Assembly: GCA_964017185.1 (NCBI GenBank)
Contig: OZ024878.1
Span: 4,216,151-4,280,150, forward strand
Origin: Rugalucina vietnamica
Taxonomy: Eukaryota; Mollusca; Bivalvia; Lucinida; Lucinidae
DNA: 64,000 bases
Reading direction: 5' to 3'
How positions within the stretch are numbered: the first letter of the stretch is position 1; each line of letters starts with the position of its first letter. The notes under the pieces are model-generated. The model saw only the letters and a list, made by a program, of their open reading frames with translations, was not told where the DNA came from and did no database searches. Shown here piece by piece: positions 18,082 to 40,015 of the stretch. The position numbers and the translations under genes were made by a program.

Positions 18082-20171
18082 GCTCACCTGAGCCGAAGGC
18101 TCATAGGTGAGCTTATAGTATACCCATGCTCCGGCGTCCGTCCGTCCGTTGTCCGTCGTCCGTCCGTCGTCGTCCACAATTTCAAAGATCTTCTTCTATG
18201 AAACCGCTGGGCCGATTGTTCTCATATTTCACATACACCATGTACAGGTAAGGGGAAAGAATAATTGTGTTTTTTGTTTTGATCGGATAAGAACTCTGGT
18301 TGCTATGGCAACTTATGCTTCCCATAGACTTATAATGGAAAAAAGTGAAAATTGCTAGTTTTTGCTGTCTTGTTGGAGATATTTGAATTTTGTTTTTGCA
18401 GAAATGTTAATTGAGTAGTCCTCTATGTTTCATGTGACTTTTGTCCTAATCCTTTATTTTGATTGGTTGCAGGGGATATAGGGCAAAATTTCGAAAAACA
18501 TTCAAAAATCTTCTTCTCAGAAACTGTCAAGGGGATTAAGCCTGTACTTTGTATACATGTTCCTGACAGTGGCCTCTACATAATTTGTGTTTTTTATTCC
18601 AGGCGGATAAGAACTCTGGTTGCTATGGCAACTTAAAGTTTCCATAGACTTATAATGGGAAAAGTGGAAATCGGCTATTTTTCAGCTAAAATGGCAGACA
18701 TTTGAATTTTGTTTTTGCAGAAATGTTTATTGAGTAGTCCTCTACGTTTCGTGTGACTTTTGTCCTAATCCTTTATTTTGATTGGTTGCAGGGGTCCCAT
18801 ATAGGGCAAAATTTCGAAAAACATTCAAAATCTTCTTTTCAGAAACTGTCAAGGGGATTAAGCCTGTACTTTGTATACATGTTCCTGACAGTGGCCTCTA
18901 CATAATTTGTGTTGTTTTTTTATTCCAGGCGGATAAGAACTCTGGTTGCTATGGCAACTTAAAGTTTCCATAGACTTATAATGGGAAAAGTGGAAATTGG
19001 CTATTTTTCAGCTAAAATTGCAGACATTTGAATTTTGTTTTTGCAGAAATGTTTATTGAGTAGTCCTCTACGTTTCATGTGACTTTTGTCCTAATCCTTT
19101 ATTTTGATTGGTTGCTGGGGCCCCATTTAGGGCAAAATTTCGAAAAACATTCAAAAATCTTCTTCTCAGAAACTGTCAAGGGGATTAAACCTGTACTTTG
19201 TATACATGTTCCTGACAGTGGCCTCTACATAATTTGTGTTTTTTATTCCAGACGGATAAGAACTCTGGTTGCTATGGCAACTTAAAGTTTCCATAGACTT
19301 ATAATGGGAAAAGTGGAAATTGGCTATTTTTCCGCTAAAATTGCAGATATTTGAATTTTGTTTTTGCAGAAATGTTTATTGAGTAGTTTTTGATGTTTCT
19401 TGTGAGTTTTGTCCTAAACCTTTATTTTGATTGGTTGCTGGGGCCCCATAAAGGGCAAAATTTTGAGAAAAAAATTTCAAAAATCTTGTCCTCGGAATCT
19501 GTCGAATGGATGAATCCTGTACTTTGTATACATGTTCCTGACAGTAGCCTCTACATAATTTGTGTTTTTTATTCCAGTCGGATAAGAACTGGTTGATATG
19601 GTTTCCATATACTTATAATGGGAAAAGTGGAAATTAGCTATATTTTCTGGACCAATCTTAGGTATTTGAATTTTGTCTTTGCAGAAATATTTATTGAGTA
19701 TATCTCTATGTTTCATGTGACTTTTTCCCTAATCCTTTATTTTGATTGGTTGCTGGGGCCACATAAAGGGTAAAATTTGGAAAAACATTTTAAAATCTCC
19801 TCCTCAGAAATTGTCTATGGCATGAAGCCTGTACTTTGTATACATGTTCCTGACAGTAGTCTCTACATAATTTGTGTTTTTTATTTCAGTCGGATAAGAA
19901 ATCTGGTTGCTATGGCAACTTAAAGTTTCGATTGACTTAAAACGGGAAAAGTGGAAACTGGCTATTTTTTTCTGGTCCAATCGCAGATATTTGAATTCTA
20001 TTTTTGCAGAAATGTTTATAGAGTAGTCCTCTACAGTTTGGTTGACTTTTGTCCTAATCCTTTATTTTGATTGGTTGGTGGGGCCCCATAAAGGGCAAAT
20101 TTTTTAAATAATTATTTGGTAAATATAGCAGATCTCAGGTGAGCGTTTACAGGACCGTTGGTCCTCTGGTT
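18082..20171. mobile_element. 2.1-kb repeat with ~320-bp internal tandem array
   Basis: The left end starts GCTCACCTGAGCC and the right end carries CTCAGGTGAGCG in inverted orientation. A GTCCGTCCGTCC tract lies near the left end. The body is a tandem series of a ~320 bp unit; the landmark GTGACTTTTGTCCTAATCC lies near 18433, 18752, 19079, 19400, 19717 and 20041, and divergence increases to the right. Each unit contains ATTTTGATTGGTTG and GGTTGCTATGGCAACTTA. I associate this class (CTCACCTGAG ends plus a GTCCGTCC tract) with dispersed molluscan repeats. No protein domain is visible. Confidence 0.8.
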
Positions 20172-21609: not shown

Positions 21610-21615
21610 AGCCTC
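21610..21615. repeat. Polinton target-site duplication, left
   Basis: AGCCTC immediately precedes the element and is repeated exactly at 40010-40015. Six bp is the hallmark duplication length of Polinton integrases. Confidence 0.95.
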
Positions 21616-21846
21616 AGTAGTAATGGCTGGCGGTATAGCGCCTTTTTCTGAAAACTTATAGCGCCTTTTTTATAGCGCCATTTCAGATAAGCGTAGCGCT
21701 AGAAATGGCGCTATAAAAAAGGCGCTATAAGTTTTCAGAAAAAGGCGCTATACCGCGCACCCTGGGTCTCAGTTTAAAAATGAACTAGCTAAGTTGCATG
21801 TGTAGGTAAGTATCCTTGAGCTAAGACAGGGACTTGAAGTAATGTG
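21616..21846 (+). repeat. Polinton left terminal inverted repeat with internal hairpin
   Basis: 231 bp, the inverted copy of 39779-40009. Fourteen bases inside the tip lies a near-perfect foldback: arms 21630-21683 and 21703-21756 (54 bp each) around a 19 bp loop. Each arm contains three copies of TATAGCGCC, six per terminus. By analogy with protein-primed viral genomes such a structure could be an origin or a polymerase/integrase binding site; that is inference. Confidence 0.95.
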
Positions 21847-21878
21847 CAAATAAAGGTTATCTTTCAGAAATAGTTGGT

Positions 21879-21894
21879 AGCCCTGAAAAGGGCT
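21879..21894 (-). terminator. Histone-type 3' stem-loop A
   Basis: On the - strand it reads AGCCCTTTTCAGGGCT followed by ACCAAC: a 6 bp stem, a TTTC loop and a 3' ACCA flank, close to the metazoan replication-dependent histone mRNA stem-loop. It starts 26 nt after the stop codon of the gene at 21921-22343. A GAAAGA purine tract follows, resembling a histone downstream element. Confidence 0.8.
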
Positions 21895-21920
21895 GTTTGA
21901 GTATTTTGTGAAGTCTGAAT

Positions 21921-22343
21921 TTATTTTGTAGTCTTCTTTCGCTTGGTTGCTTGTATTTCTTTCTTAGCTATGCCTAATCCTACAGCTGGAGATGATTTAG
22001 CCGGTTGGTCTGTATTGATGATGTCTAATCTGATAGGCATTCTGATCGCAGGGAACTGTATGCTTGGCATCTGAGCTTGTCGCTGTACTTCTTCTTCCAG
22101 TTGTTTGACTTTGGATTTCAACTCATTGAGTTCTTTAACCAAGACATCTATTATCTGTGTTCTTTGCAGTTGTTGCTGCAACTGTGATGTCTGTTGCTGG
22201 TAAGGAGAAACCGCTTGTACTGGTTGTTGATAGTACTGCTGTTGTGTAGTTGCAGTGTCATTAGTAAAGACTTCATTACATGCTTGCAGTAATATGTCTG
22301 GGTTGTTTATCATATCGTCGAAGCTGATTTGATTCGAAGCCAT
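21921..22343 (-). CDS. Polinton accessory protein, Gln-rich coiled coil
   Basis: 140 aa, not recognised. Residues ~30-60 are very rich in Q and Y. Residues ~62-90 form a heptad-like segment (IIDVLVKELNELKSKVKQLE), so a coiled-coil dimer is likely. The C-terminus is basic (ATKRKKTTK), a plausible nuclear signal. It is transcribed divergently from the gene at 22563 across a shared promoter region with two facing copies of the same motif, and ends in histone-type stem-loop A. A regulatory or DNA-binding role is a guess from composition only. Confidence 0.8.
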   Translation of the reverse strand: MASNQISFDDMINNPDILLQACNEVFTNDTATTQQQYYQQPVQAVSPYQQQTSQLQQQLQRTQIIDVLVKELNELKSKVKQLEEEVQRQAQMPSIQFPAIRMPIRLDIINTDQPAKSSPAVGLGIAKKEIQATKRKKTTK

Positions 22344-22382
22344 GACTGAACATGTATGTAAAACTTGTACTGTTGAGCTAAG

Positions 22383-22415
22383 CTTTTATACTCACTGAGA
22401 GGATTGACCTACTTT
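22383..22415 (-). promoter_or_regulatory. Promoter module copy 1 (AGGTCAATCC + TATA)
   Basis: On the - strand AAAGTAGGTCAATCC is followed after 9 nt by GTATAAAAG. The layout is base-for-base the same as the module at 22485-22517 in inverted orientation. It drives the gene ending at 21921. Confidence 0.8.
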
Positions 22416-22484
22416 CTGTCTCATGTTTGTAAAGTCGGCTGTGATTTGTTACTTATACTGGACCTTCTGATTGGTTTGAAGTTT

Positions 22485-22517
22485 AAAGTAGGTCAATCCC
22501 CCCAGAGAGTATAAAAG
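22485..22517 (+). promoter_or_regulatory. Promoter module copy 2 (AGGTCAATCC + TATA)
   Basis: AAAGTAGGTCAATCC, 9 nt spacer, GTATAAAAG. An inverted CCAAT box (CTGATTGGTT) lies just upstream near 22467. The TATA box is about 50 nt before the ATG at 22563. Confidence 0.8.
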
Positions 22518-22562
22518 CAAACGCATTTTGCAGTTCTGTACACTATTCTCGTGTACAACAAA

Positions 22563-23009
22563 ATGGCAAAACAGTTTGACTGTGAGTGCTACTTAAGAGC
22601 TTTGGAGGAGCAGGCAGACAGTATTGGTGGGGCGGCTACCAGCATGTTGGAAGCTATCAATACTTTCAAGAACAGCGCTGAGTCCTTGCAGCGGACGGTA
22701 GAAAATCTGAAGTCTATGATCAGTATGACAAGAAGTGCTATGAATTTAGCACATGGAGGACGGGTAGTTGAAAAAGTGGAGATAAAGCGGGAGGCGTTGT
22801 CACCAATTGTGTCAGAAGAGGACTGGGATGATGACAGACCCAGTCATAACTACAGTGATCAGACTGAAGATTGGGGCGCCGAGGCAAACGAGCCGTCCTA
22901 TAGTTTTGAAGGCAGGAACCTTTCGATTCCTGCCTACAGAACGGTCAAGTTTGATCGATGGGGACAGCGCTGTCCTGCCTGTGGGAGCAGATACTGTGCC
23001 TGCTCCTAA
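22563..23009 (+). CDS. Polinton accessory protein with C-terminal CxxC/CxC motif
   Basis: 148 aa from the first ATG after the TATA box (MAKQFDCECY). No family recognised. Residues ~10-65 look helical. The middle carries an IKRE sequence matching the sumoylation consensus and an acidic stretch (SEEDWDDD). The protein ends in CPACGSRYCACS, a possible metal site. It belongs to the coordinated left-end set: the same promoter as its divergent neighbour and a histone-type stem-loop 25 nt after its stop. Confidence 0.82.
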   Translation: MAKQFDCECYLRALEEQADSIGGAATSMLEAINTFKNSAESLQRTVENLKSMISMTRSAMNLAHGGRVVEKVEIKREALSPIVSEEDWDDDRPSHNYSDQTEDWGAEANEPSYSFEGRNLSIPAYRTVKFDRWGQRCPACGSRYCACS

Positions 23010-23034
23010 TCTGTGGAACATAAATCCACCCAAC

Positions 23035-23050
23035 GGCCCTTTTCAGGGCC
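23035..23050 (+). terminator. Histone-type 3' stem-loop B
   Basis: GGCCCTTTTCAGGGCC followed by ACAC: 6 bp stem and TTTC loop, matching the histone consensus GGYYYTHTHARRRCC. It lies 25 nt after the stop codon at 23007-23009. Confidence 0.85.
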
Positions 23051-23201
23051 ACACATTTCTTTCCGATTGAAATAACTTTTATTAATGTATTTATGTTGTA
23101 TATATGTTGTCTTACGGTTATGGTGTGATCTTTGTGGCGTGATCGTATGTAAACTTCTCATTGGTTCTGATTTTAACTCTTCTGATTGGTTCTGATTAAA
23201 A

Positions 23202-23232
23202 TGTAGGTCAATCCTACTCATTCACTATATAA
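23202..23232 (+). promoter_or_regulatory. Promoter module copy 3 (AGGTCAATCC + TATA)
   Basis: TGTAGGTCAATCC, then 11 nt, then TATATAA. Two TTGGTTCTGAT/ATTGGTTCTGAT (inverted CCAAT) boxes lie just upstream (about 23160-23195). It precedes the small gene at 23269. Confidence 0.75.
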
Positions 23233-23268
23233 CATCGTGTTCTGTGTCTCTCTGTACATTCTGGAACT

Positions 23269-23445
23269 ATGGGGTTCTTTGAAAAATTCAGCTTGAGGAA
23301 ATTGTGTGCTGCTTTTCACAAAAAAGATTATCGGGAAATTGAGAGGCAACAAAACAAGATGGGGATACAGATTTTTTTGGCCAGAAGAGGTATTGGTTAC
23401 TGCAAACCAGTAGCTATTGTACGACCAATGCCTCGTAGACCTTAG
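23269..23445 (+). CDS. 58-aa Polinton accessory protein
   Basis: Short frame beginning MGFFEKFSLRKLC and ending IVRPMPRRP. Basic; no family recognised. It is accepted as real because it is the only frame between a copy of the shared promoter module (TATATAA at 23226) and a histone-type stem-loop 27 nt after its stop, the same architecture as its two larger neighbours. The ATG is the first after the TATA box. Confidence 0.7.
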   Translation: MGFFEKFSLRKLCAAFHKKDYREIERQQNKMGIQIFLARRGIGYCKPVAIVRPMPRRP

Positions 23446-23472
23446 GGATCTCTTGTCTCTTATGACCAAAAC

Positions 23473-23488
23473 AGTCCTTTTCAGGACT
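23473..23488 (+). terminator. Histone-type 3' stem-loop C
   Basis: AGTCCTTTTCAGGACT followed by ACCA. The stem bases differ from copies A and B but pairing is kept, so the hairpin and not the sequence is conserved. CTTCAGAAAGAAT, resembling a histone downstream element, follows. Confidence 0.82.
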
Positions 23489-23725
23489 ACCAAATCTTCA
23501 GAAAGAATACCTTTGTAATATTGTTACTGACCAAATCTTCAGATAGAATATCTTTGTAAGACATTTGCTGACCATATCTTCAGAAAGAATATGTTTGAAA
23601 GAAATTTGCTGACCATTTCTTCAGAAAGAATATCTTTGTAATAATGTTACTAACTTGTATAATGACCAATATTTCATGACTACCAAATCTCCAGAAAGAA
23701 TACCATTGTAAGAAACAACTAACAC
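23486..23725 (+). repeat. Tandem repeat of ACCAAATCTTCAGAAAGAAT unit
   Basis: About five diverged copies with a period near 40-45 bp, each containing ACCAWATCTTCAGAAAGAATA followed by TTTGTAA. The unit begins at the 3' flank of stem-loop C, so the stem-loop flank plus purine-rich element has been amplified. An AATAAA at 23724 may be a back-up polyadenylation signal. Confidence 0.75.
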
Positions 23726-23863: not shown

Positions 23864-24613
23864 TCAGTTCAATGTCAATTTACTTAATGATTTCTTCAGC
23901 TCTTCTTCTGGATCAAGAACAATTTCGTCACAGTTCTTAGCATCATGAGTCTCTGATTTACAGATGAAGCAATATTTCCTCTTAGGAATCCTTCGTTTCG
24001 TCTTCTTTGGCTCAGCTGTCTTCTCTACTTTTCGCTGCTTGCTTGGAGTTGGCTCTGGCACATCTTCGTCACACATTCGCTTTCGTTTGTTTGTCTTTTC
24101 CACCACTGCAGTTGATTCAGTTGATGTTGAAATTTTCTCTGGTTTTGTCTCATCTTTCTGTGGACACTTTGAAGCCCAGTGATCAAACGAACCGCACTTG
24201 AAACATTGTCCATGTGCTGGTTTTCCATCTGGTTGTTCTCTAGCAAGCTTTAGTTTCAAACAGTCGCTGGCCCAGTGTGTTGTTTCTTTACAGTAGTAAC
24301 ATTGTCCAAAAGGTGGAACAAGTTTTCCTTGTGCCCTCAGCATATCTTCTAATGGCTTTAGCTGTTGAACTTCATCTGTAGTGAGAAGTTTCTTCAAAGA
24401 TATGAAGTGGTAGTAGATACTCTTAGTCTCACTGCTCATAGTTGAATCCATGTTTACTCTTTGACGATTTGAAGTAGAATGATTCTGTGAGTCTGTGTCA
24501 CCGACTTTATACCCTGGCGCAGCATGCGTAAAGGTACCTTTCATCAATGATCGATGTTGATAGTAGATACTCTTTGGGTCATTGAATTTTTCTTTTCTTG
24601 GATCTTGTGACAT
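23864..24613 (-). CDS. Gag-like protein with three CCHC zinc knuckles
   Basis: 249 aa. Three zinc knuckles of exact CX2CX4HX4C spacing lie at residues 105-118, 137-150 and 215-228, the first two each followed by HWAS after the histidine region. The N-terminus has a duplicated KSIYYxxxSLxK block (residues 14-25 and 64-75). Between knuckles 2 and 3 lies a basic region (TNKRKRM, SKQRKVEK, KKTKRRIPKRK) likely to be nuclear-localising and nucleic-acid binding. It ends KLTLN, the same five residues that end the neighbouring 128-aa protein. A TATAAAA box (24661-24667, - strand) lies about 50 nt upstream. An RNA or ssDNA chaperone role is inference; CCHC knuckles are typical of retroviral Gag, not of Polinton cores. 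Confidence 0.85.
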   Translation of the reverse strand: MSQDPRKEKFNDPKSIYYQHRSLMKGTFTHAAPGYKVGDTDSQNHSTSNRQRVNMDSTMSSETKSIYYHFISLKKLLTTDEVQQLKPLEDMLRAQGKLVPPFGQCYYCKETTHWASDCLKLKLAREQPDGKPAHGQCFKCGSFDHWASKCPQKDETKPEKISTSTESTAVVEKTNKRKRMCDEDVPEPTPSKQRKVEKTAEPKKTKRRIPKRKYCFICKSETHDAKNCDEIVLDPEEELKKSLSKLTLN

Positions 24614-27606: not shown

Positions 27607-30600
27607 ATACTTGGAAGAAAACCATGAAATATATCTCGGACTCCAGAAAACCAATGCAGACTCGGGAAGCAAAGAAGTTACTGGACCAAGCTAAGATTCC
27701 TCACGACAAAGTCTGTGGCATTGAGGAATACAAGAAGATCCAAGATGTTCTGTATCCAGATTACCTGATCAAAGTCCATTCACAACATCCTAAGGATGGA
27801 CTGATCTTTCCACTACAATTCAAGAAAAAACCAGAGACAAAAGTCATTCATCTGTACTGGAATGGAGACAAACACTACGATACCGTAACCAAGGTGACGG
27901 GACTGATGGGGTGTTCATACTACTGCGAGTATTGTGATGTCGGCTACACCAACAGAGGAGATCACCGATGCAATGATGGATGTGATGGTTGCTATAGTGA
28001 CATTCCATGTATACCTGGACAGAAAGTCAAATGTGTAGATTGTAAGAGAACTTTTAAGAGTCAAAGTTGTTTTGATAATCATAAGGCAATTAAGGGTAAT
28101 CAGAAGAAATCTATTTGTCAACTTGTATACAATTGTGAAAAGTGTTCAGGTCGTATCATTGGTCGTAAAAAGAATCATGTATGTCCTGGCAATAGAAAGT
28201 GTAAGATCTGTAAGGAAATTGTAGGTCCAAATCATCAATGCTACATTCAGAAGTATGTATCTAAGAAAAATGTATCTAAGGCAGCAGATTCAGATGCCGA
28301 GGAAAGCGAAGATGAAGAGAAAACAACTACTGGTCCGAAATTCGTCTTCTTCGATTTCGAGTCATCTCAAGAAACTGGAGAACATCAAGTCAACTTTTGC
28401 GTGGCACAAAGAGCTTGTGATTACTGCATAGATCTACCCAGCGATGAATACTGTCCAGGTTGCAGCACGTTACCAGGGGGACGAGAAGTTATCTTTGAGG
28501 GAACAGATACACTATCTAGATTCTGTGCGTGGATACTGGGAGACGATAACAAAGGAGTGACATGCATAGCTCATAACTTTGGTGGATACGATGGACAGTT
28601 CATCTTGAGACATATCTTGGAAAATGGGACAATGAAACCTGATGTGATCATGAATGGAAATACGATCATGAGAATGAGAATAGGCAAAGTGACATTCCTG
28701 GACTCGTACTTGTTCCTGCACATGAGACTTGCAAATTTCCCAAAGACATTTGGATTGAAAGAAATGAAGAAAGGCTACTTTCCTCATCTTGCCAATACAC
28801 AAGCCAATCAGGACTATGTAGGACCTTACTTTCCTGCAGAGATGTACATGCCCGGACAGATGTCAGAAAAGGATAGGACCGAGTTTTACAAATGGTACAA
28901 CGAAAAGGTAGAGTCTGGAACGATCTTTGACTTTAGACGAGAGATGGAAGAATATTGTCGGAGTGATGTGGATATCTTGAGACGTGGATGCGCTAGCTTC
29001 AGGAAGATCTTGAAAGATATCAGTGGTTTAGATCCTTTGATGGAATCCTGTACGATTGCCCAAGCCTGTTCCAAAGTCTGGAGAAAGAACTATATGCCAG
29101 AAAACTGTGTGGCCATCATTCCTCCAGAAGGGTATCCAAACCAGAAAAACTACTCGATCAAAGCGGTGAGATGGATTCAAAGTATAGCAAAGGAACAAGG
29201 TATAGAGATACAGCATGCATTGAATGGAGGAGAAGCTAGGATTTGTGGACACTGCGTGGATGGTTATCACAGAGAATCTAGAACTATCTACGAGTTCCAT
29301 GGATGTTATTGGCATGGTTGTCCAACACATTTTCCAGATAGAGAGACGATTCACAAACAAAGCTGTCAGACGATGGGACAACTGTATACTAACACCAACT
29401 ACCTGATGCAAAAATTCAAAGACAATGGATACCTCGTGATCGAGATGTGGGAATGTGAATATGACAAAAGGTACAAAGAGGATGAAGAATTCAGAAAGAC
29501 TGTAGACTCTCACTTTACCAACTTAGAACCATTGAGACCAAGAGATGCTTTGTTTGGTGGGCGGACCAATTCAACAAAACTCTACCATGAAATCGACGAG
29601 ACGTCACAGGATGAAATCAAGTACATTGATGTTTGTTCCCTGTATCCAACCGTATGCAAGTATGGACTGTTTCCCTTGGGTCATCCAACCATCCTATCTC
29701 AAGAAAATGTGGACAAAGACAATATTGAGCAATATGAAGGACTGATCAAATGTAAGGTATTGCCTCCTAGAGACTTGTTTCATCCCGTACTTCCTTACAA
29801 ATGTAACAATAAACTCATGTTTCCCTTGTGCAGAACTTGTGCAGAAAGATGTGATCCCTCACAAAAGTGTACACATTCAGAAGACGATGAAAGGGCACTA
29901 GTAGGAACTTGGGTTAGCATTGAGTTAAAGGCTGCATTAGAAAAAGGATATGAATTACTGGACGTATATGAAGTGTGGCATTTCCCGGAGACGACACAGT
30001 ATGACAAGAAAACTGGCGAGGGTGGTATCTTCACGAAGTACATCGATGTCTTCTTGAAAGTCAAGCAAGAATCAAGTGGCTATCCCGAATGGTGCAAGAC
30101 CGAAGCTGACAAGAAAAAATTCATACGTGATTACTTTGAAGCAGAAGGAATCTCATTAGAAGAAATAGAGAAAAATCCCGGACTGAGAGCTATAGCCAAG
30201 ATTATGTTGAACAGTTTGTGGGGTAAGCTGGCTCAGCGTGAAAAAATGACAAAGACTGAATACATATCTGACCCAGCCAAATATTTTGAACTGATAACAA
30301 ATCCATCTAAGATCGTGAAGAATGTAGACATATACGGAGAAAGATTTGTACATGTGAACTGGGAAGAAACAGACAATCTTGTTGAACCTCACACTTGTAG
30401 CAATGTGGTTGTAGGTGCATTTGTGACGGCACAAGCCAGGTTGAGATTGTACGATAAGTTAGATAAACTGGGATCAAGAGTATTGTACTTTGACGCGGAC
30501 TCAATCATCTACGTTCACGAACCAGATGAATGGAATCCAGAAATTGGAGATCGTCTTGGTGAATGGACTGATGAAGTACCAGATGCAAGAATTGTGAAAT

Positions 30601-30911
30601 TTGTTGGTATGGGACCTAAGAACTATGGGTATGAGTATGTGGAGAAAGATGGACAAAGAAAATCTACATGTAAAGTGAAAGGATTGACACTGGACTATAA
30701 CACTTCTCAGCTGATACATTTCCATCAGATGTTGGAATGGTCAAAGTCTGAAAGTAGGAACTTTTCAGTAACTGCCAAATACAATAGAATCAAAAAGCAC
30801 AGTGATAGGAAAGTGACAACTGAGGAACAAACAAAGACTTACAAATTCACATACAATAAACGCATGGTTCTAGTTAAAGGATACACGGTACCCTATGGAT
30901 ATGATTTGTAA
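27607..30911 (+). CDS. Protein-primed DNA polymerase B, exon 2
   Basis: Replicates the linear element. Numbering is for the spliced protein. A cysteine/histidine-rich region (about 305-425) precedes the 3'-5' exonuclease motifs FDFES (461), HNFGGYD (534) and YCRSD (661). Polymerase motif A is DVCSLYP (886), B is KIMLNSLWGK (1076) and C is YFDADS (Asp at 1174). The gene ends VPYGYDL. Motif C has Ala where most family B enzymes have Thr (DTDS); both catalytic aspartates are kept. Followed by the packaging ATPase. Confidence 0.95.
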
Positions 30912-31261: not shown

Positions 31262-31951
31262 ATGTCGACTATACAAGTTTTACAACAAGATATTGGTAGT
31301 TTGTTCTTCAAACATACTGCCAATATCTTTATATCTGGTCCTAGTGGTTCTGGAAAAACGGAATTTGTTAAGAAAATGATTGAATACAAAGAAGATTTGT
31401 TTGACATTCATCCACAACAAATTGTGTGGTGTTACAAAGAATGGCAATCTGCCTACAATATCCTGCAAGAACGTGAAGGATCAAACATAAAATTCATTCT
31501 CGGCATCCCAGATGACGAGGATGACATCGTCACTGATGTCAGTGTACCACACTTAGTCATCTTTGACGATATGTTGGGAGACAAAGATGAAGAAAAAATT
31601 AAGTTATGGTTTACGAGAAAAGGACATCACAGAAATGCGAGTTTGGTCTACATCACACAAAACTTATTTCAACAAAGCAAATCATCCCGCACGATAAGTT
31701 TGAACGCTCATTATCTGGTTTTGTTCCAAAGTCCAAGGGACAAAATGCAGATCAAAGTTCTTTCCAATCAACTGCAAACACCACATATGATTCCTGCCTT
31801 TAACGATGCAACATCAAAACCTCATGGTTACTTACTGGTCGATTTGAAACCAACCACACCAAATTACTTGAGATTGAGAACAAATATTTTTCAACATTGG
31901 TTTACAAAATCAGATCAATCGGGACCAGTGGTTTATTTTCCAAGCGTATAA
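31262..31951 (+). CDS. FtsK/HerA-type DNA-packaging ATPase
   Basis: 229 aa. Walker A GPSGSGKT at residues 26-33, Walker B VIFDDM at 99-104, and an ITQNLFQQ segment typical of A32-like packaging ATPases. It pumps genomic DNA into preformed capsids. Full length for the family. Its stop codon lies inside the TATA box of the next gene. Confidence 0.95.
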   Translation: MSTIQVLQQDIGSLFFKHTANIFISGPSGSGKTEFVKKMIEYKEDLFDIHPQQIVWCYKEWQSAYNILQEREGSNIKFILGIPDDEDDIVTDVSVPHLVIFDDMLGDKDEEKIKLWFTRKGHHRNASLVYITQNLFQQSKSSRTISLNAHYLVLFQSPRDKMQIKVLSNQLQTPHMIPAFNDATSKPHGYLLVDLKPTTPNYLRLRTNIFQHWFTKSDQSGPVVYFPSV

Positions 31952-33257: not shown

Positions 33258-34094
33258 ATGGCCATTGTTCCATTTAAACTTTGGGAAGACATGAAACGCT
33301 GGAAAGAAGAACAAATTCAAAAACCTAGATTACCACCTAATCCAAATGTGTCTGCCACAGCAAGTCTTCAGAGAGACTTATCTTCGGTCATGGCTGACGA
33401 AGACATGTCCGAAGCTGAAAAAGCTCAATTATTTGGTGAAACTTTACACAAATTTCAATCGGCTCACAAAAAAGCTTTGCAAGATCAATCTTTAAAATTA
33501 CCAAGTGTAACATCCAGTTCCTCTAGAATGAACCAACTTGTATTAGATAGTGTACCTAGCACGATGAAACGAAAAGCACAACTTTTACTTAACATTTTAA
33601 AAGATAATCCAAACATGACTTGGGATGATGATGGTACCGTAAAACTTTATGGTAAAGCTATTGAAGGATCTAATATCATTGACTTGGTCAATGATGTTTT
33701 AAGACATAGAAAAGGCAGTGAACCCACGGGATGGCAACCGTTTGCTGAAGGGTTAAGAGAAATGAATATTCCTCAAGATGTAATTGGAAATAGGGAAAGG
33801 TGGGAGTGGATGCATCGGGGCGTATCTTCTTCTCCTAGAACTCCAGATGACAATTATGTCACACCAGCCCAAAAACGTGTTTCGACAGCACGTAAACGTG
33901 CAAGTCGTATTCCCGTTTCTAAAACACAGAAAACAACTAAAAGAAAAGTCAAATCAGAATTTACACCGTCCGAGCTAGCAAAAATTAAAAAGCAGTTGTA
34001 TTCTCCTTTGTCTGCCACAAAAAGTTATATAAAAGAAGAAATGTCTACGCCAAAGTTCCAACCCAAACAGTGGCTCACTTACGATGATCAATAA
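33258..34094 (+). CDS. Conserved-type Polinton protein, function unknown
   Basis: 278 aa starting MAIVPFKLWEDMKRWKEEQ. This start is preferred over the in-frame ATG at 33243 because it avoids overlap with the upstream gene and gives a start I associate with Polinton proteins. A helical N-terminal half is followed by a basic stretch (STARKRASRIPVSK, TTKRKVKSE). The stop overlaps the integrase ATG by one base (TAATG). Function not known to me. Confidence 0.8.
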   Translation: MAIVPFKLWEDMKRWKEEQIQKPRLPPNPNVSATASLQRDLSSVMADEDMSEAEKAQLFGETLHKFQSAHKKALQDQSLKLPSVTSSSSRMNQLVLDSVPSTMKRKAQLLLNILKDNPNMTWDDDGTVKLYGKAIEGSNIIDLVNDVLRHRKGSEPTGWQPFAEGLREMNIPQDVIGNRERWEWMHRGVSSSPRTPDDNYVTPAQKRVSTARKRASRIPVSKTQKTTKRKVKSEFTPSELAKIKKQLYSPLSATKSYIKEEMSTPKFQPKQWLTYDDQ

Positions 34095-35164
34095 TGAATT
34101 TTGACAAATTGTATTATGATCCAAAAAGTCCTGCAGGTTATGCTGGTGAACAAGCTTTGTACAAGCTTGCTAGAAAATCTTCTAAAAATGTCAAATTGAA
34201 AGATGTCAGAAATTGGTTGAAAAAACAACAGACCTACACTTTACATAAACCTATCAGAAGAAAATTTTTACGTCGTAAGACTGTGGTTGCAGGAATTGAT
34301 CATCAATGGCAAGCCGATCTAGCAGACATGTCAAAAATGTCAAAGTCCAATGATAAATTTAGATATCTGCTTTGCATTATCGATGTGTTTTCAAAATTTG
34401 CATGGGTTGTACCCATTGCAGACAAGACGGGAAAAACTTTAGTAAATGCATTTAAACTTGTGTTGAAAAATGGGCGTCAACCAAAAAGTTTGCAAACTGA
34501 CAAAGGTACAGAATTCAAAAACAGAGACTTTCAAGGGTTTTTAAAATCTAAGAAAATTCATTTCTTCACAACTGAAAACCCAGAAACAAAAGCAAGTATT
34601 GTTGAAAGATTCCAAAGAACTTTGAAAAGTCGCATGTGGAAGTATTTCACGCACAATCGCACTTTGCGATATGTTGATGTTCTTCCAAAATTAGTCGAAG
34701 GTTACAATCATGCATATCACAGAAGTATCAAACGTGCACCTGTTTCTGTGACAAAAGAGAATGAACCACAAGTGTCTGAAATTCTTTTTGGCAAACCTAG
34801 AAAACTGCAAAAACAAACTAAAATCAAAGTAGGTGATTATGTTAGGATCAATAAAACTAAACGCACATTTGACAAAGGATATTTGCCAAATTGGACACAG
34901 GAATTGTTTCAGATTTCTGATGTGGTGAAAACGCAGTTTCCCACTACCTATAAAATAAGAGATCTCGATGGTGAATCTGTCAGTGGTACATTCTACTCTC
35001 AAGAGTTACAACGTGTCGAAAAAGATCAGATTTTTGAAATCGATTCGGTCTTAGCTCACAGAAAACGCAAAGTTGGAAAGAAGTGGGTTAAAGAAATCAA
35101 AGTACACTGGAAAGGATATCCATCGAAATTTGACAGTTGGATTCTAGAGTCTGATCTTGTATAA
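34094..35164 (+). CDS. Retrovirus-like integrase with C-terminal chromodomain
   Basis: 356 aa. The rve catalytic core has Asp75 (QADLADM), Asp136 (QTDKGTEF) and Glu171 (ASIVERFQ). After an SH3-like region, residues ~314-356 form a chromodomain (IKVHWKGYPSKFDSWILESDL), which in related integrases directs insertion to marked chromatin. It inserts the element and makes the 6 bp duplication seen at the ends. All three catalytic residues are present and the gene is intact. Confidence 0.97.
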   Translation: MNFDKLYYDPKSPAGYAGEQALYKLARKSSKNVKLKDVRNWLKKQQTYTLHKPIRRKFLRRKTVVAGIDHQWQADLADMSKMSKSNDKFRYLLCIIDVFSKFAWVVPIADKTGKTLVNAFKLVLKNGRQPKSLQTDKGTEFKNRDFQGFLKSKKIHFFTTENPETKASIVERFQRTLKSRMWKYFTHNRTLRYVDVLPKLVEGYNHAYHRSIKRAPVSVTKENEPQVSEILFGKPRKLQKQTKIKVGDYVRINKTKRTFDKGYLPNWTQELFQISDVVKTQFPTTYKIRDLDGESVSGTFYSQELQRVEKDQIFEIDSVLAHRKRKVGKKWVKEIKVHWKGYPSKFDSWILESDLV

Positions 35165-36760: not shown

Positions 36761-38065
36761 ATGATTCAAATTGGTTCTTGCGACTGCAGTAAAACAGAAA
36801 TAGAAATGGAATCTGTTCCACCCACCATGACAACCATGGAGGATACTCAGTGGACAGATTATCATCCTATTGCTTCATTGGATAGTCATCATGCACCCAT
36901 TGAATTCGTAATTCCACCACAGACAGAAAATTATACAGATTTGTCTCAAACCTATCTCTATCTGAGATGTCGAATTTTGCAAGCTGGTGTTGGAAATGAT
37001 CTTGAGGCAGGCAAAAAAGTAGCCCCTGTGAATAATTTCTTTCACAGCATGTTTAGCAGTATAGATTTGTATTTGAACAACAAACTTGTGACAAGTAATA
37101 TGGACACATATCCTTACAGAGCTTATCTCGAAAACTTGTTTTCATTTGGTTCTGATGTAAAACAAAATCAACTGAAAGCTGGGGAATTTTGGTATCAAGA
37201 TGAAACTGGAAAATTTGTTGCTTTTGATTCTGAGCCGATCAAAGCTCGAATAGCAGCTGTGGAAGAAAGTAAACCTTTGGAATTGATGGGACGATTGCAT
37301 TTGGATCTAGCCATGCAGGAAAAATATTTGCCAAATGGAATTGAGATCAGACTCAGATTGAATCGAGCTTCACCTCAGTTTTGTTTGATGGTCGGTGAAG
37401 TCGATGGTTATCCCTCGGTAGTCAAAATTGATGTTGCTAAAGTCTCTGTGAGAACAGTACAACTTCTACCAGCAATCACAAATGATTTGAATCAGACCAT
37501 AGCTCAGAAACAAGCAAAGTTTCCTATCAGAAGAGTAGAAGTCAAAACTTTCACGATAAACGCTGGGTTGAGATCAAAGATTGAGGATCATTTGTTCCAA
37601 GGTCAACTTCCAAAACGTGTGTTCATTGGCATGGTCACAAATGAAGAGTTCAATGGAAGCTATGCAAGCAATCCTTTCAGATTCCAACATTTCAGACTAA
37701 GTAAACTTGAAGTCAGTTGTGATGGACACAATATTTACGGCAGACCTTTTGAACCAAACTTCAATGACAATCAGTACCTGAGATCATACATGTCACTGTA
37801 TCAAGCTTTGAGCAGTCAGAACCAGGTTCAAAACTGTAATATTAGTTTCCAGGACTATAAAGACGGATACTGCTTCTGGGGATTCGATTTGACACCAGAC
37901 CAAGGAGCTGACCAGAACCATCTGCACCCTTTAAAAACAGGAAACCTGAGACTAGAGCTTCAGTTTGCCAGAGCACTTGACTACACCATCAACGTTATTG
38001 TCTACGCAGAGTTTGACAATCTGATAGAAATAAACGGACTCAGAGAAGTGGTCACAGACTACTAA
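36761..38065 (+). CDS. Major capsid protein (double jelly roll)
   Basis: 434 aa. Features of the Polinton hexon-like capsid protein: an N-terminal IEFVIPPQTENYTDLSQTYL segment, NNFFHSMFSSIDLYLNN (about 90-106), and the C-terminal half with SYMSLYQAL and GYCFWGFDLTPDQ. It forms the trimeric capsomers of the predicted virion. The frame starts MIQIGSCDC, but an internal Met at residue 17 is also possible. Intact. Confidence 0.95.
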   Translation: MIQIGSCDCSKTEIEMESVPPTMTTMEDTQWTDYHPIASLDSHHAPIEFVIPPQTENYTDLSQTYLYLRCRILQAGVGNDLEAGKKVAPVNNFFHSMFSSIDLYLNNKLVTSNMDTYPYRAYLENLFSFGSDVKQNQLKAGEFWYQDETGKFVAFDSEPIKARIAAVEESKPLELMGRLHLDLAMQEKYLPNGIEIRLRLNRASPQFCLMVGEVDGYPSVVKIDVAKVSVRTVQLLPAITNDLNQTIAQKQAKFPIRRVEVKTFTINAGLRSKIEDHLFQGQLPKRVFIGMVTNEEFNGSYASNPFRFQHFRLSKLEVSCDGHNIYGRPFEPNFNDNQYLRSYMSLYQALSSQNQVQNCNISFQDYKDGYCFWGFDLTPDQGADQNHLHPLKTGNLRLELQFARALDYTINVIVYAEFDNLIEINGLREVVTDY

Positions 38066-38695: not shown

Positions 38696-39274
38696 ATGGA
38701 TACTATACAACTCAGCAGAATATTGAACAATATGCCAGTGAAAGGAGAAGTGTGTGCTAAAGACTTATTACCAGATAGAAAACCACTGCACACAAAAGCA
38801 TACATAGTAAACACAGACTTGTCAGATGATCCAGGAGAACATTGGACAGCAGTGTACTTCAGAGATGTTAAAGTGATCTACTTTGATTCCTATGGTTTAC
38901 CACCAGATGAAGATTACATCCTACCATTTATCAATCGAAATTCAACTGGATGGATACAGAACACACAAGTGTTACAAGATCCATGGAGTAACACTTGTGG
39001 AATGTGGTGTATCTATATCATCTATCAGCTCAACAGAGGACATGATCTGAAAACAGCTATTCACAAAGAACTCAAAGGCACAGGAAAAGACTTATCTCAG
39101 AATGACAGAGACATTGACATGTGGTTCAGAAAGAACTATGGAACATTTATCAAAGACAGTACAATGTGCAAGACAATTCCAGACATTCTATTAAAACAAC
39201 GAGTACAAACTTGCAGATGTCTACATAAAACACATTGTCTTTCAAAACAGTATCCCATGTACAGATTATTGTAA
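38696..39274 (+). CDS. Adenain-like cysteine protease (C48/C5 fold)
   Basis: 192 aa. The catalytic set is His49 (GEHWTAVY), Asp64 (YFDSYG), Gln94 (LQDPWS) and Cys101 (NTCGMWC), in the order and spacing of adenovirus-type proteases. It would cleave virion precursors at Gly-rich sites such as those in the small basic proteins of this element. Length matches the family. The first Met after the upstream stop was chosen. Confidence 0.95.
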   Translation: MDTIQLSRILNNMPVKGEVCAKDLLPDRKPLHTKAYIVNTDLSDDPGEHWTAVYFRDVKVIYFDSYGLPPDEDYILPFINRNSTGWIQNTQVLQDPWSNTCGMWCIYIIYQLNRGHDLKTAIHKELKGTGKDLSQNDRDIDMWFRKNYGTFIKDSTMCKTIPDILLKQRVQTCRCLHKTHCLSKQYPMYRLL

Positions 39275-39778: not shown

Positions 39779-40009
39779 CACATTACTTCAAGTCCCTGTC
39801 TTAGCTCAAGGATACTTACCTACACATGCAACTTAGCTAGTTCATTTTTAAACTGAGACCCAGGGTGCGCGGTATAGCGCCTTTTTCTGAAAACTTATAG
39901 CGCCTTTTTTATAGCGCCATTTCTAGCGCTACGCTTATCTGAAATGGCGCTATAAAAAAGGCGCTATAAGTTTTCAGAAAAAGGCGCTATACCGCCAGCC
40001 ATTACTACT
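39779..40009 (-). repeat. Polinton right terminal inverted repeat
   Basis: 231 bp; exact reverse complement of 21616-21846, including the 54 bp-arm hairpin and its 19 bp loop. Ends CCATTACTACT. Confidence 0.97.
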
Positions 40010-40015
40010 AGCCTC
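40010..40015. repeat. Polinton target-site duplication, right
   Basis: AGCCTC, identical to 21610-21615. Confidence 0.95.

Follow-up and report, generated by a model that had tools for sequence, protein, structure and literature searches.

Why would three genes of a virus-like mobile element end in the kind of hairpin that closes animal histone mRNAs? The question is raised by a 64,000-nucleotide stretch of the genome of the lucinid bivalve Rugalucina vietnamica (contig OZ024878.1, positions 4,216,151 to 4,280,150; hereafter the window), which holds a Polinton with three short genes at its left end, here genes 1, 2 and 3, each followed by such a hairpin. Replication-dependent histone genes are regarded as the animal genes whose mRNAs lack a poly(A) end. 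Forming a histone 3′ end requires a stem-loop, to which SLBP binds, and a downstream element rich in purines, to which the U7 small nuclear ribonucleoprotein (snRNP) binds; the transcript is cleaved between the two and is not polyadenylated (PMC9133132). We find that genes 1–3 combine the hairpins with the promoter box of the host H2A and H2B genes, and from these signals we consider it very likely that the Polinton expresses these left-end genes through the replication-dependent histone programme of its host; their proteins are probably made while the cell copies its DNA. Polintons and histone 3′ ends are each known; in the open-access literature searched we found no report of a Polinton with a histone-gene promoter and 3′ end. 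An earlier reading of the same DNA, made from its letters alone (the sequence-only reading), knew of no described Polinton with histone-type mRNA ends.

Histone-type hairpins at the ends of three Polinton genes

The hairpins have the coordinates, strands, TTTC loops, ACCA or ACAC flanks and distances of 26, 25 and 27 nt from the stop codon that the sequence-only reading gave them (Table 1). In the 64 kb, DGYYYTTTTCARRRCH matches at these three hairpins and nowhere else, whereas shuffled sequence leads one to expect 0.07 matches. All three share the shape of the Rfam histone 3′ element, RF00032, with a 6-bp stem, a 4-nt loop, a conserved G-C second pair and a U-A sixth pair, and in a 22-kb search with that model their E-values were 1.8e-6, 3.6e-6 and 1.7e-4, respectively. 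The host genome itself contains a 6.58-kb histone repeat carrying H1, H2A, H2B, H3 and H4, each of which ends in a 16-nt hairpin of the same type; the consensus given in the sequence-only reading, at 15 letters, was one base short. A covariance model trained solely on these five host hairpins and the 34 nt downstream of each gives the three Polinton sites scores of 46.2, 45.7 and 43.0 bits, and the next best site in the window scores 15.0.

An alignment of 15 hairpins (five host, three Polinton and seven from other loci) upholds the earlier observation that stem bases differ between copies yet stay paired. All 90 of its 90 stem cells are paired, and at three of the pairs both partners vary, with pairing that is partly selected because the rows were picked by pattern or model and with one locus (L017) that has a broken gene; the second, fifth and sixth pairs are invariant in all 15, the host five included. 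We suggest that the Polinton hairpins work like RF00032, though they are not curated members of that family. Across the whole genome, a loose version of the hairpin pattern has 208 matches against 28 for a reversed control. Three matches to the hairpin pattern in the IMG/VR database (L120–L122) were set aside, their surroundings being without histone-type context.

An H2A/H2B-type promoter on the same genes

Host H2A and H2B have in common the box AAAGTAGGTCAATCC, with a TATA box 10 and 11 nt further on, and genes 1, 2 and 3 show spacings of 10, 10 and 11 nt. At up to two mismatches, the box occurs in the window exclusively at the three gene promoters, with 0.17 occurrences expected. The exact 15-mer is present in 17 of the 71 loci examined; 16 of these, which overlap, come from six Polinton copies, and the other is the stretch with host H2A and H2B. 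By eye, no such box precedes host H1, H3 or H4; at H4 there is a partial match in inverted orientation, GACCTACTTTT. The suggestion in the sequence-only reading that genes 1–3 make S-phase-coupled, non-polyadenylated mRNAs is strengthened because the same genes carry this host H2A/H2B box and its TATA spacing, and the promoter and host-model results carry our main claim.

Searching the 1.09-Gb genome with GTAGGTCAATCCN{8,13}TATA returned 190 matches against a single one for the reversed control, a count in which TATATA sites (including that of host H2A) are scored twice and of which 100 matches were listed. Assigned by coordinates, those 100 comprise 11 at host H2A/H2B genes, 83 at Polinton copies that bear gene 2, four at two gene-1-like pairs (one pair read), one at a GDSL-like gene with a hairpin, and one that sits 266 nt before a gene-3-type hairpin amid degraded Polinton copies; on contigs C7–C10 the assignment, whether to a gene 2 copy or to a histone gene, was made by eye. 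The pair that was read (L125, C1:78964400-78967000) consists of two inverted gene 1 copies with a common divergent histone-type promoter and a hairpin on each, and a second promoter pair of this kind lies 18 kb away, at C1:78.983M. Within IMG/VR, the promoter 15-mer occurs on 47 contigs, with one match each, which we took as chance.

Other genes of the element look different. A GGTCAA box is absent from the 250 nt upstream of six of the six tested, four of which have a TATA box, so the genes of the element seem to fall into two expression classes, with a sharp divide at the promoters and a less sharp one at the poly(A) signals.

Sequences downstream of the hairpins

Host H1 and H3 carry the purine motif GAAAGA 14 nt past the hairpin, and genes 1 and 3 of the Polinton have it at a similar position (Table 1). 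What follows the gene 2 hairpin is similar to the corresponding segments of host H2A and H2B. Gene 1 has no poly(A) signal (AATAAA or ATTAAA) up to 500 nt past its stop codon; gene 2 has ATTAAA at 185 nt and gene 3 has AATAAA at 280 nt. The rightward gene block closes with a further AATAAA, 95 nt past the stop codon of the protease-like gene. Alignment gaps suggest that the number of 41-bp tandem repeats in the post-hairpin segment of gene 3 (23489-23700) varies between copies of the element.

Conservation among copies of the element

A protein search with gene 2 gave 53 matches in the genome, of which 36 are long, 84–100% identical and free of stop codons; two copies encode an identical protein. 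The ratio of nonsynonymous to synonymous substitution rates (dN/dS) is 0.17 for gene 1 (seven copies), 0.09 for gene 2 (six copies) and 0.13 for gene 3 (seven copies), while synonymous sites differ among copies by 17, 36 and 29%, respectively. Judged by these ratios, genes 1–3 are under purifying selection. Over seven copies, divergence is zero in hairpins 1 and 2, 1.8% in hairpin 3 and 12–14% in the spacers between stop codon and hairpin, and the promoters of genes 1, 2 and 3 diverge by 1.9, 2.5 and 5.3%; the invariance of the hairpins in this set is biased, since six of the copies were retrieved by the hairpin pattern.

We therefore also counted retention free of this bias, taking as the starting set the gene 2 copies that the protein search detected on contigs C1–C6. 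Among the 17 copies there with at least 84% identity, hairpin 2 is kept in all 17, hairpin 1 in 16 and hairpin 3 in 15, and same-type promoters are present for gene 1 in 16, for gene 2 in 16 and for gene 3 in 15. Hairpin 2 stands 24–27 nt past the gene 2 stop codon in 17/17. Two of these copies are irregular: C2:1674062 is split and contains stop codons, and at C4:24011670 hairpin 3 and promoter 3, scored as present, lie ~8 kb off. The count drew on 22 of the 53 gene 2 matches, on 52 of the 100 hairpin matches listed (of 208 in total), those near gene 2 copies, and on 48 of the 100 promoter matches listed, the others being six TATATA duplicates, four matches at C1:78.97-78.98M, one at C5:64.7M and 41 on C7–C10.

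A probable histone programme on a Polinton and its alternatives

If genes 1–3 do follow the histone programme, H2A/H2B promoter factors would activate them at S-phase entry, the hairpin would recruit SLBP and the purine block would recruit U7 snRNP, and the pre-mRNA would be cleaved between the two. The resulting mRNAs would be free of poly(A), translated during S phase and lost to decay once replication stops. The remaining genes of the element seem to use other promoters and, where the rightward gene block closes, a poly(A) signal. The likely benefit would be that three proteins, perhaps early or regulatory ones, are made during cellular DNA replication; that such proteins meet the replicating cell in an early or regulatory role is our guess. 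We also lean towards a fuller version, in which the complete host programme is captured, from the histone locus body through the H2A/H2B factors to SLBP and U7, with dozens of scattered copies firing alongside the histone array in each S phase. A Polinton that reproduces both ends of a histone gene would be one that keeps time with DNA synthesis in its host under the guise of histone genes. It would offer a handle on how Polintons are expressed in animals and on which DNA sequence suffices for a gene to join the histone programme; promoter box and hairpin together make a computable screen for further genes of this kind.

The likeness to canonical metazoan histone genes extends to the 6-bp stem, TTTC loop and ACC-type flank, to the purine-rich block 12–14 nt past the hairpin (genes 1 and 3), to short single-frame genes and, for host H2A and H2B, to the promoter box at equal distance from the TATA box. 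In contrast to those genes, genes 1–3 encode no recognisable histone and sit on a virus-like mobile element.

Several observations weigh against our interpretation. The sequence-only reading had proposed an Rfam covariance-model search as a check, and its outcome is split: at the curated gathering score of 34, RF00032 gives no match in the window, and the three hairpins, at 33.9, 33.1 and 28.6 bits, all fall below a cut-off that the five host histone genes exceed (35.2–37.2 bits), whereas the host-trained model detects all three clearly. The shortfall is narrow for hairpins 1 and 2 and amounts to 5.4 bits for hairpin 3; at E 0.001, RF00032 also has a match, again below the cut-off, in one of 14 control genomes, a bacterium. 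The earlier recognition of histone-type 3′ elements holds, with the correction that two of the three Polinton hairpins have A-U rather than G-C as the closing pair. Gene 2, like host H2A, H2B and H4, is without a strict GAAAGA. Fallback polyadenylation is possible for genes 2 and 3, given their signals at 185 and 280 nt, and the contrast at 3′ ends is not sharp, since either signal occurs up to 500 nt past the stop codon in only six of the 14 other genes. Promoters 1 and 2 form a 34-nt inverted repeat and are thus not independent. Conservation is equally high in the 5′ untranslated regions of genes 1 and 3 (3.2 and 2.1% divergence) and in the stretch between promoters 1 and 2 (2.9%), and the copies compared share descent within one genome. 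Finally, one of five divergent gene 2 remnants keeps hairpin 2, and none was found among the matches listed for the other four; the remnant that keeps it (L127, 48% identity) has a broken gene 2 frame and retains hairpins 2 and 3.

Could the histone likeness be coincidental, the hairpins being generic structures such as terminators or DNA cruciforms near the terminus? Long inverted repeats do lie in both terminal repeats of the element, the 28 matches of the reversed control show that chance matches exist, and four loci (L016, L029, L030 and L038) fit the pattern but not the host model. Such structures would, however, have to account for the exact spacing from the stop codon, the correct strand for three genes running in two directions, the TTTC loop, the purine block resembling a histone downstream element (HDE) and the compensatory stem changes (90/90 cells paired in 15 hairpins, rows partly selected). 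With only 0.07 matches expected in the window, high host-model scores and a co-occurring H2A/H2B promoter besides, we regard this explanation as highly improbable and reject it. An alternative that takes the signals as genuine is that the genes, or the whole left-end block, were captured from the host along with their promoters and 3′ ends, which would then be baggage inherited from a class of host genes on the histone programme rather than mimicry built by the element. Other non-histone genes with the same 3′ end exist in this genome (L015, L020, L024, L028, L027 and the L001 array), so the signals may have come with captured genes; a GDSL-like gene (L126, named by eye) has both promoter and hairpin, and the gene 2 3′ end resembles that of host H2A. 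Yet genes 1 and 2 have no Pfam family above cut-off, and L126 is alone among the other genes read in having the promoter box. Promoters and hairpins are nearly unchanged in copies where synonymous sites differ by 17–36%, so that the signals seem to be maintained by selection, whatever their origin. We consider passive inheritance unlikely.

Genuine histone signals might also serve tissue rather than timing. Oocytes and embryos in early cleavage are rich in histone mRNAs, which are bound by SLBP and lack poly(A), and the same promoters and hairpins could direct expression to the germ line or early embryo, where transposition is inherited. The many copies of the element, two of them with an identical gene 2 protein, fit germ-line activity. 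This purpose is compatible with S-phase timing, and the present evidence does not separate the two; as an explanation in place of timing we think it somewhat doubtful, and we retain the coupling of genes 1–3 to host DNA replication as the preferred reading.

Structure and gene content of the element

The identification of the element as a Polinton in the sequence-only reading is borne out by its terminal inverted repeats (TIRs), target-site duplication (TSD), DNA polymerase B of the presumed protein-primed type, integrase and ATPase (Table 1). The identical 231-bp TIRs, with (AGT)2-type ends, and the 6-bp TSD enclose the hairpin genes, which lie at the left end. Vertebrate Mavericks are described with the end motif (AGT)2//(ACT)2 and a 6-bp TSD (PMC8097293). 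The present element shares these ends with Polintons/Mavericks, together with DNA polymerase B, rve integrase, ATPase and a weak adenovirus-like protease, and what sets it apart from them is the histone-type promoter and 3′ end on each of three genes at its left. Its rve integrase ends in a chromodomain, as in adintoviruses, for which a C-terminal chromodomain on this enzyme is a defining trait (PMC11071296).

Table 1 Features of the Polinton and of its left-end genes (positions in the window)
Feature	Position	Strand	Details
Hairpin 1	21879..21894	-	AGCCCT-TTTC-AGGGCT, then ACCA; 26 nt after gene 1 stop; RF00032 33.9 bits; host model 45.7
Hairpin 2	23035..23050	+	GGCCCT-TTTC-AGGGCC, then ACAC; 25 nt after gene 2 stop; RF00032 33.1; host model 46.2
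Hairpin 3	23473..23488	+	AGTCCT-TTTC-AGGACT, then ACCA; 27 nt after gene 3 stop; RF00032 28.6; host model 43.0
Promoter box, gene 1	22401..22415	-	AAAGTAGGTCAATCC, H2A/H2B-type
TATA box, gene 1	22383..22390	-	10 nt past promoter box
Inverted CCAAT (ATTGG)	22470..22474	+	18 nt before gene 2 GTAGGTCAATCC box
Promoter box, gene 2	22485..22499	+	AAAGTAGGTCAATCC, H2A/H2B-type
TATA box, gene 2	22510..22517	+	10 nt past promoter box
Promoter box, gene 3	23200..23214	+	AATGTAGGTCAATCC, 1 mismatch, H2A/H2B-type
TATA box, gene 3	23226..23232	+	11 nt past promoter box
GAAAGA purine element, HDE-like	21860..21865	-	13 nt past hairpin 1
GAAAGA purine element	23501..23506	+	12 nt past hairpin 3
Four tandem 41-bp units of post-hairpin segment	23489..23652	+	ACC...CAGAAAGAATA; repeated HDE-like purine blocks
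Gene 1	21921..22343	-	140 aa; Gln-rich, coiled-coil-like (by eye), C-terminus basic; no Pfam family above cut-off
Gene 2	22563..23009	+	148 aa; one long helix (7-63), middle acidic, C-terminal CPACGSRYCAC; no Pfam family above cut-off
Gene 3	23269..23445	+	58 aa; small, basic, MGFFEKF...
TSD, left	21610..21615	.	6 bp, AGCCTC
TSD, right	40010..40015	.	6 bp, AGCCTC
Left TIR	21616..21846	.	231 bp; first bases AGTAGT; 100% complementary to right TIR
Right TIR	39779..40009	.	231 bp; last bases ACTACT
CCHC zinc-knuckle protein	23864..24613	-	249 aa; no hairpin; no promoter box within 250 nt
DNA polymerase B	27624..30911	+	PF03175 (organellar and viral type B polymerase), E 1.5e-48
Packaging-ATPase-like protein	31262..31951	+	Pox_A32, 24.2 bits against cut-off 22.8
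rve integrase, chromodomain at C-terminus	34094..35164	+	PF00665, 6.4e-13, above cut-off
434-aa protein	36761..38065	+	Major capsid protein candidate (guess)
Adenovirus-protease-like protein	38696..39274	+	PF00770 Peptidase_C5, 19.2 bits, E 0.0011, below cut-off 21.3

Genes 1–3 are short, each with an uninterrupted frame. The C-terminal motif of gene 2 is a Cys cluster, and an AlphaFold model of this protein, a single helix with a predicted template-modelling score of 0.34, was too poor for a fold search. Relatives elsewhere number 72 protein matches for gene 2 and 35 for gene 1. Against IMG/VR, gene 2 gave two matches with 35% identity over 54 residues (L070 and L071), taken as chance, and DNA polymerase B had no relatives in that database. 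The 434-aa open reading frame (ORF) has 1380 relatives, several of them labelled 'F54H12.2-like' in bivalves (Mercenaria, Saccostrea, Ostrea and Crassostrea being named), and a sequence search among solved structures found none. One relative, at 73%, comes from a bin labelled Thiodiazotropha, a lucinid symbiont.

Inside each TIR, two 55-nt arms that are perfect inverted repeats flank a 17-nt spacer (21630-21756 and 39869-39995), so that the element has a long hairpin at either terminus. MicroRNA-like Rfam scores at the left end were discarded, as they stay under their cut-offs and are located on these repeats, not on the histone hairpins. To the left of the Polinton, about six repeats of ~320 bp form a tandem-like array (18265-20119).

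Other loci with histone-type 3′ ends or histone-like genes

Histone-type ends also occur on host genes outside the histone repeat. A tandem array at C5:38.078-38.199M (L001, L003–L008) holds 74 of the 75 RF00032 matches listed, spaced ~1.4 kb apart, and where the frames were read (L001 and L003) a 106-aa non-histone gene is followed by a histone hairpin and CAAGAAAGAAA. At C5:64726300-64728300 (L126), a 191-aa gene that looks GDSL/SGNH-like by eye has the H2A/H2B-type promoter and a histone hairpin scoring 30.9 bits with Rfam. Four GDSL-like lipase genes (L015, L020, L024 and L028; PF13472, two of the four above cut-off) end in histone-type hairpins followed by GAAAG-type blocks, and the promoter box is absent from these four loci; on both sides of the L020 locus, the flanks read (L123 and L124) contain no Polinton genes. 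A 195-aa gene at C2:14.78M (L027) has a histone hairpin 26 nt past its stop codon, and at C3:43574560-43574605 (L002) a strong histone-type hairpin (Rfam 32.2, host model 46.5 bits) has no gene of at least 60 aa just before it. The promoter and hairpin of L126, together with the hairpins of the tandem array, hint that this host has a hidden class of genes other than histones on the histone programme, populated by mobile elements.

Divergent H3-like genes were seen at C11:20.3M, C11:34.0M, C2:43.8M and C8:14.5M (L058–L065), near ORFs that appear virus-type by eye and one SET-like ORF. Two of the virus-type ORFs were checked and gave no Pfam family, and the host model finds no histone hairpins at these genes. 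They recall the 'Histoid' genes, which adomaviruses carry as histone-like genes (PMC11071296). There too a virus-type element engages histone biology; the adomavirus gene encodes a histone-like protein, whereas in the Polinton described here the regulatory signals alone are histone-like.

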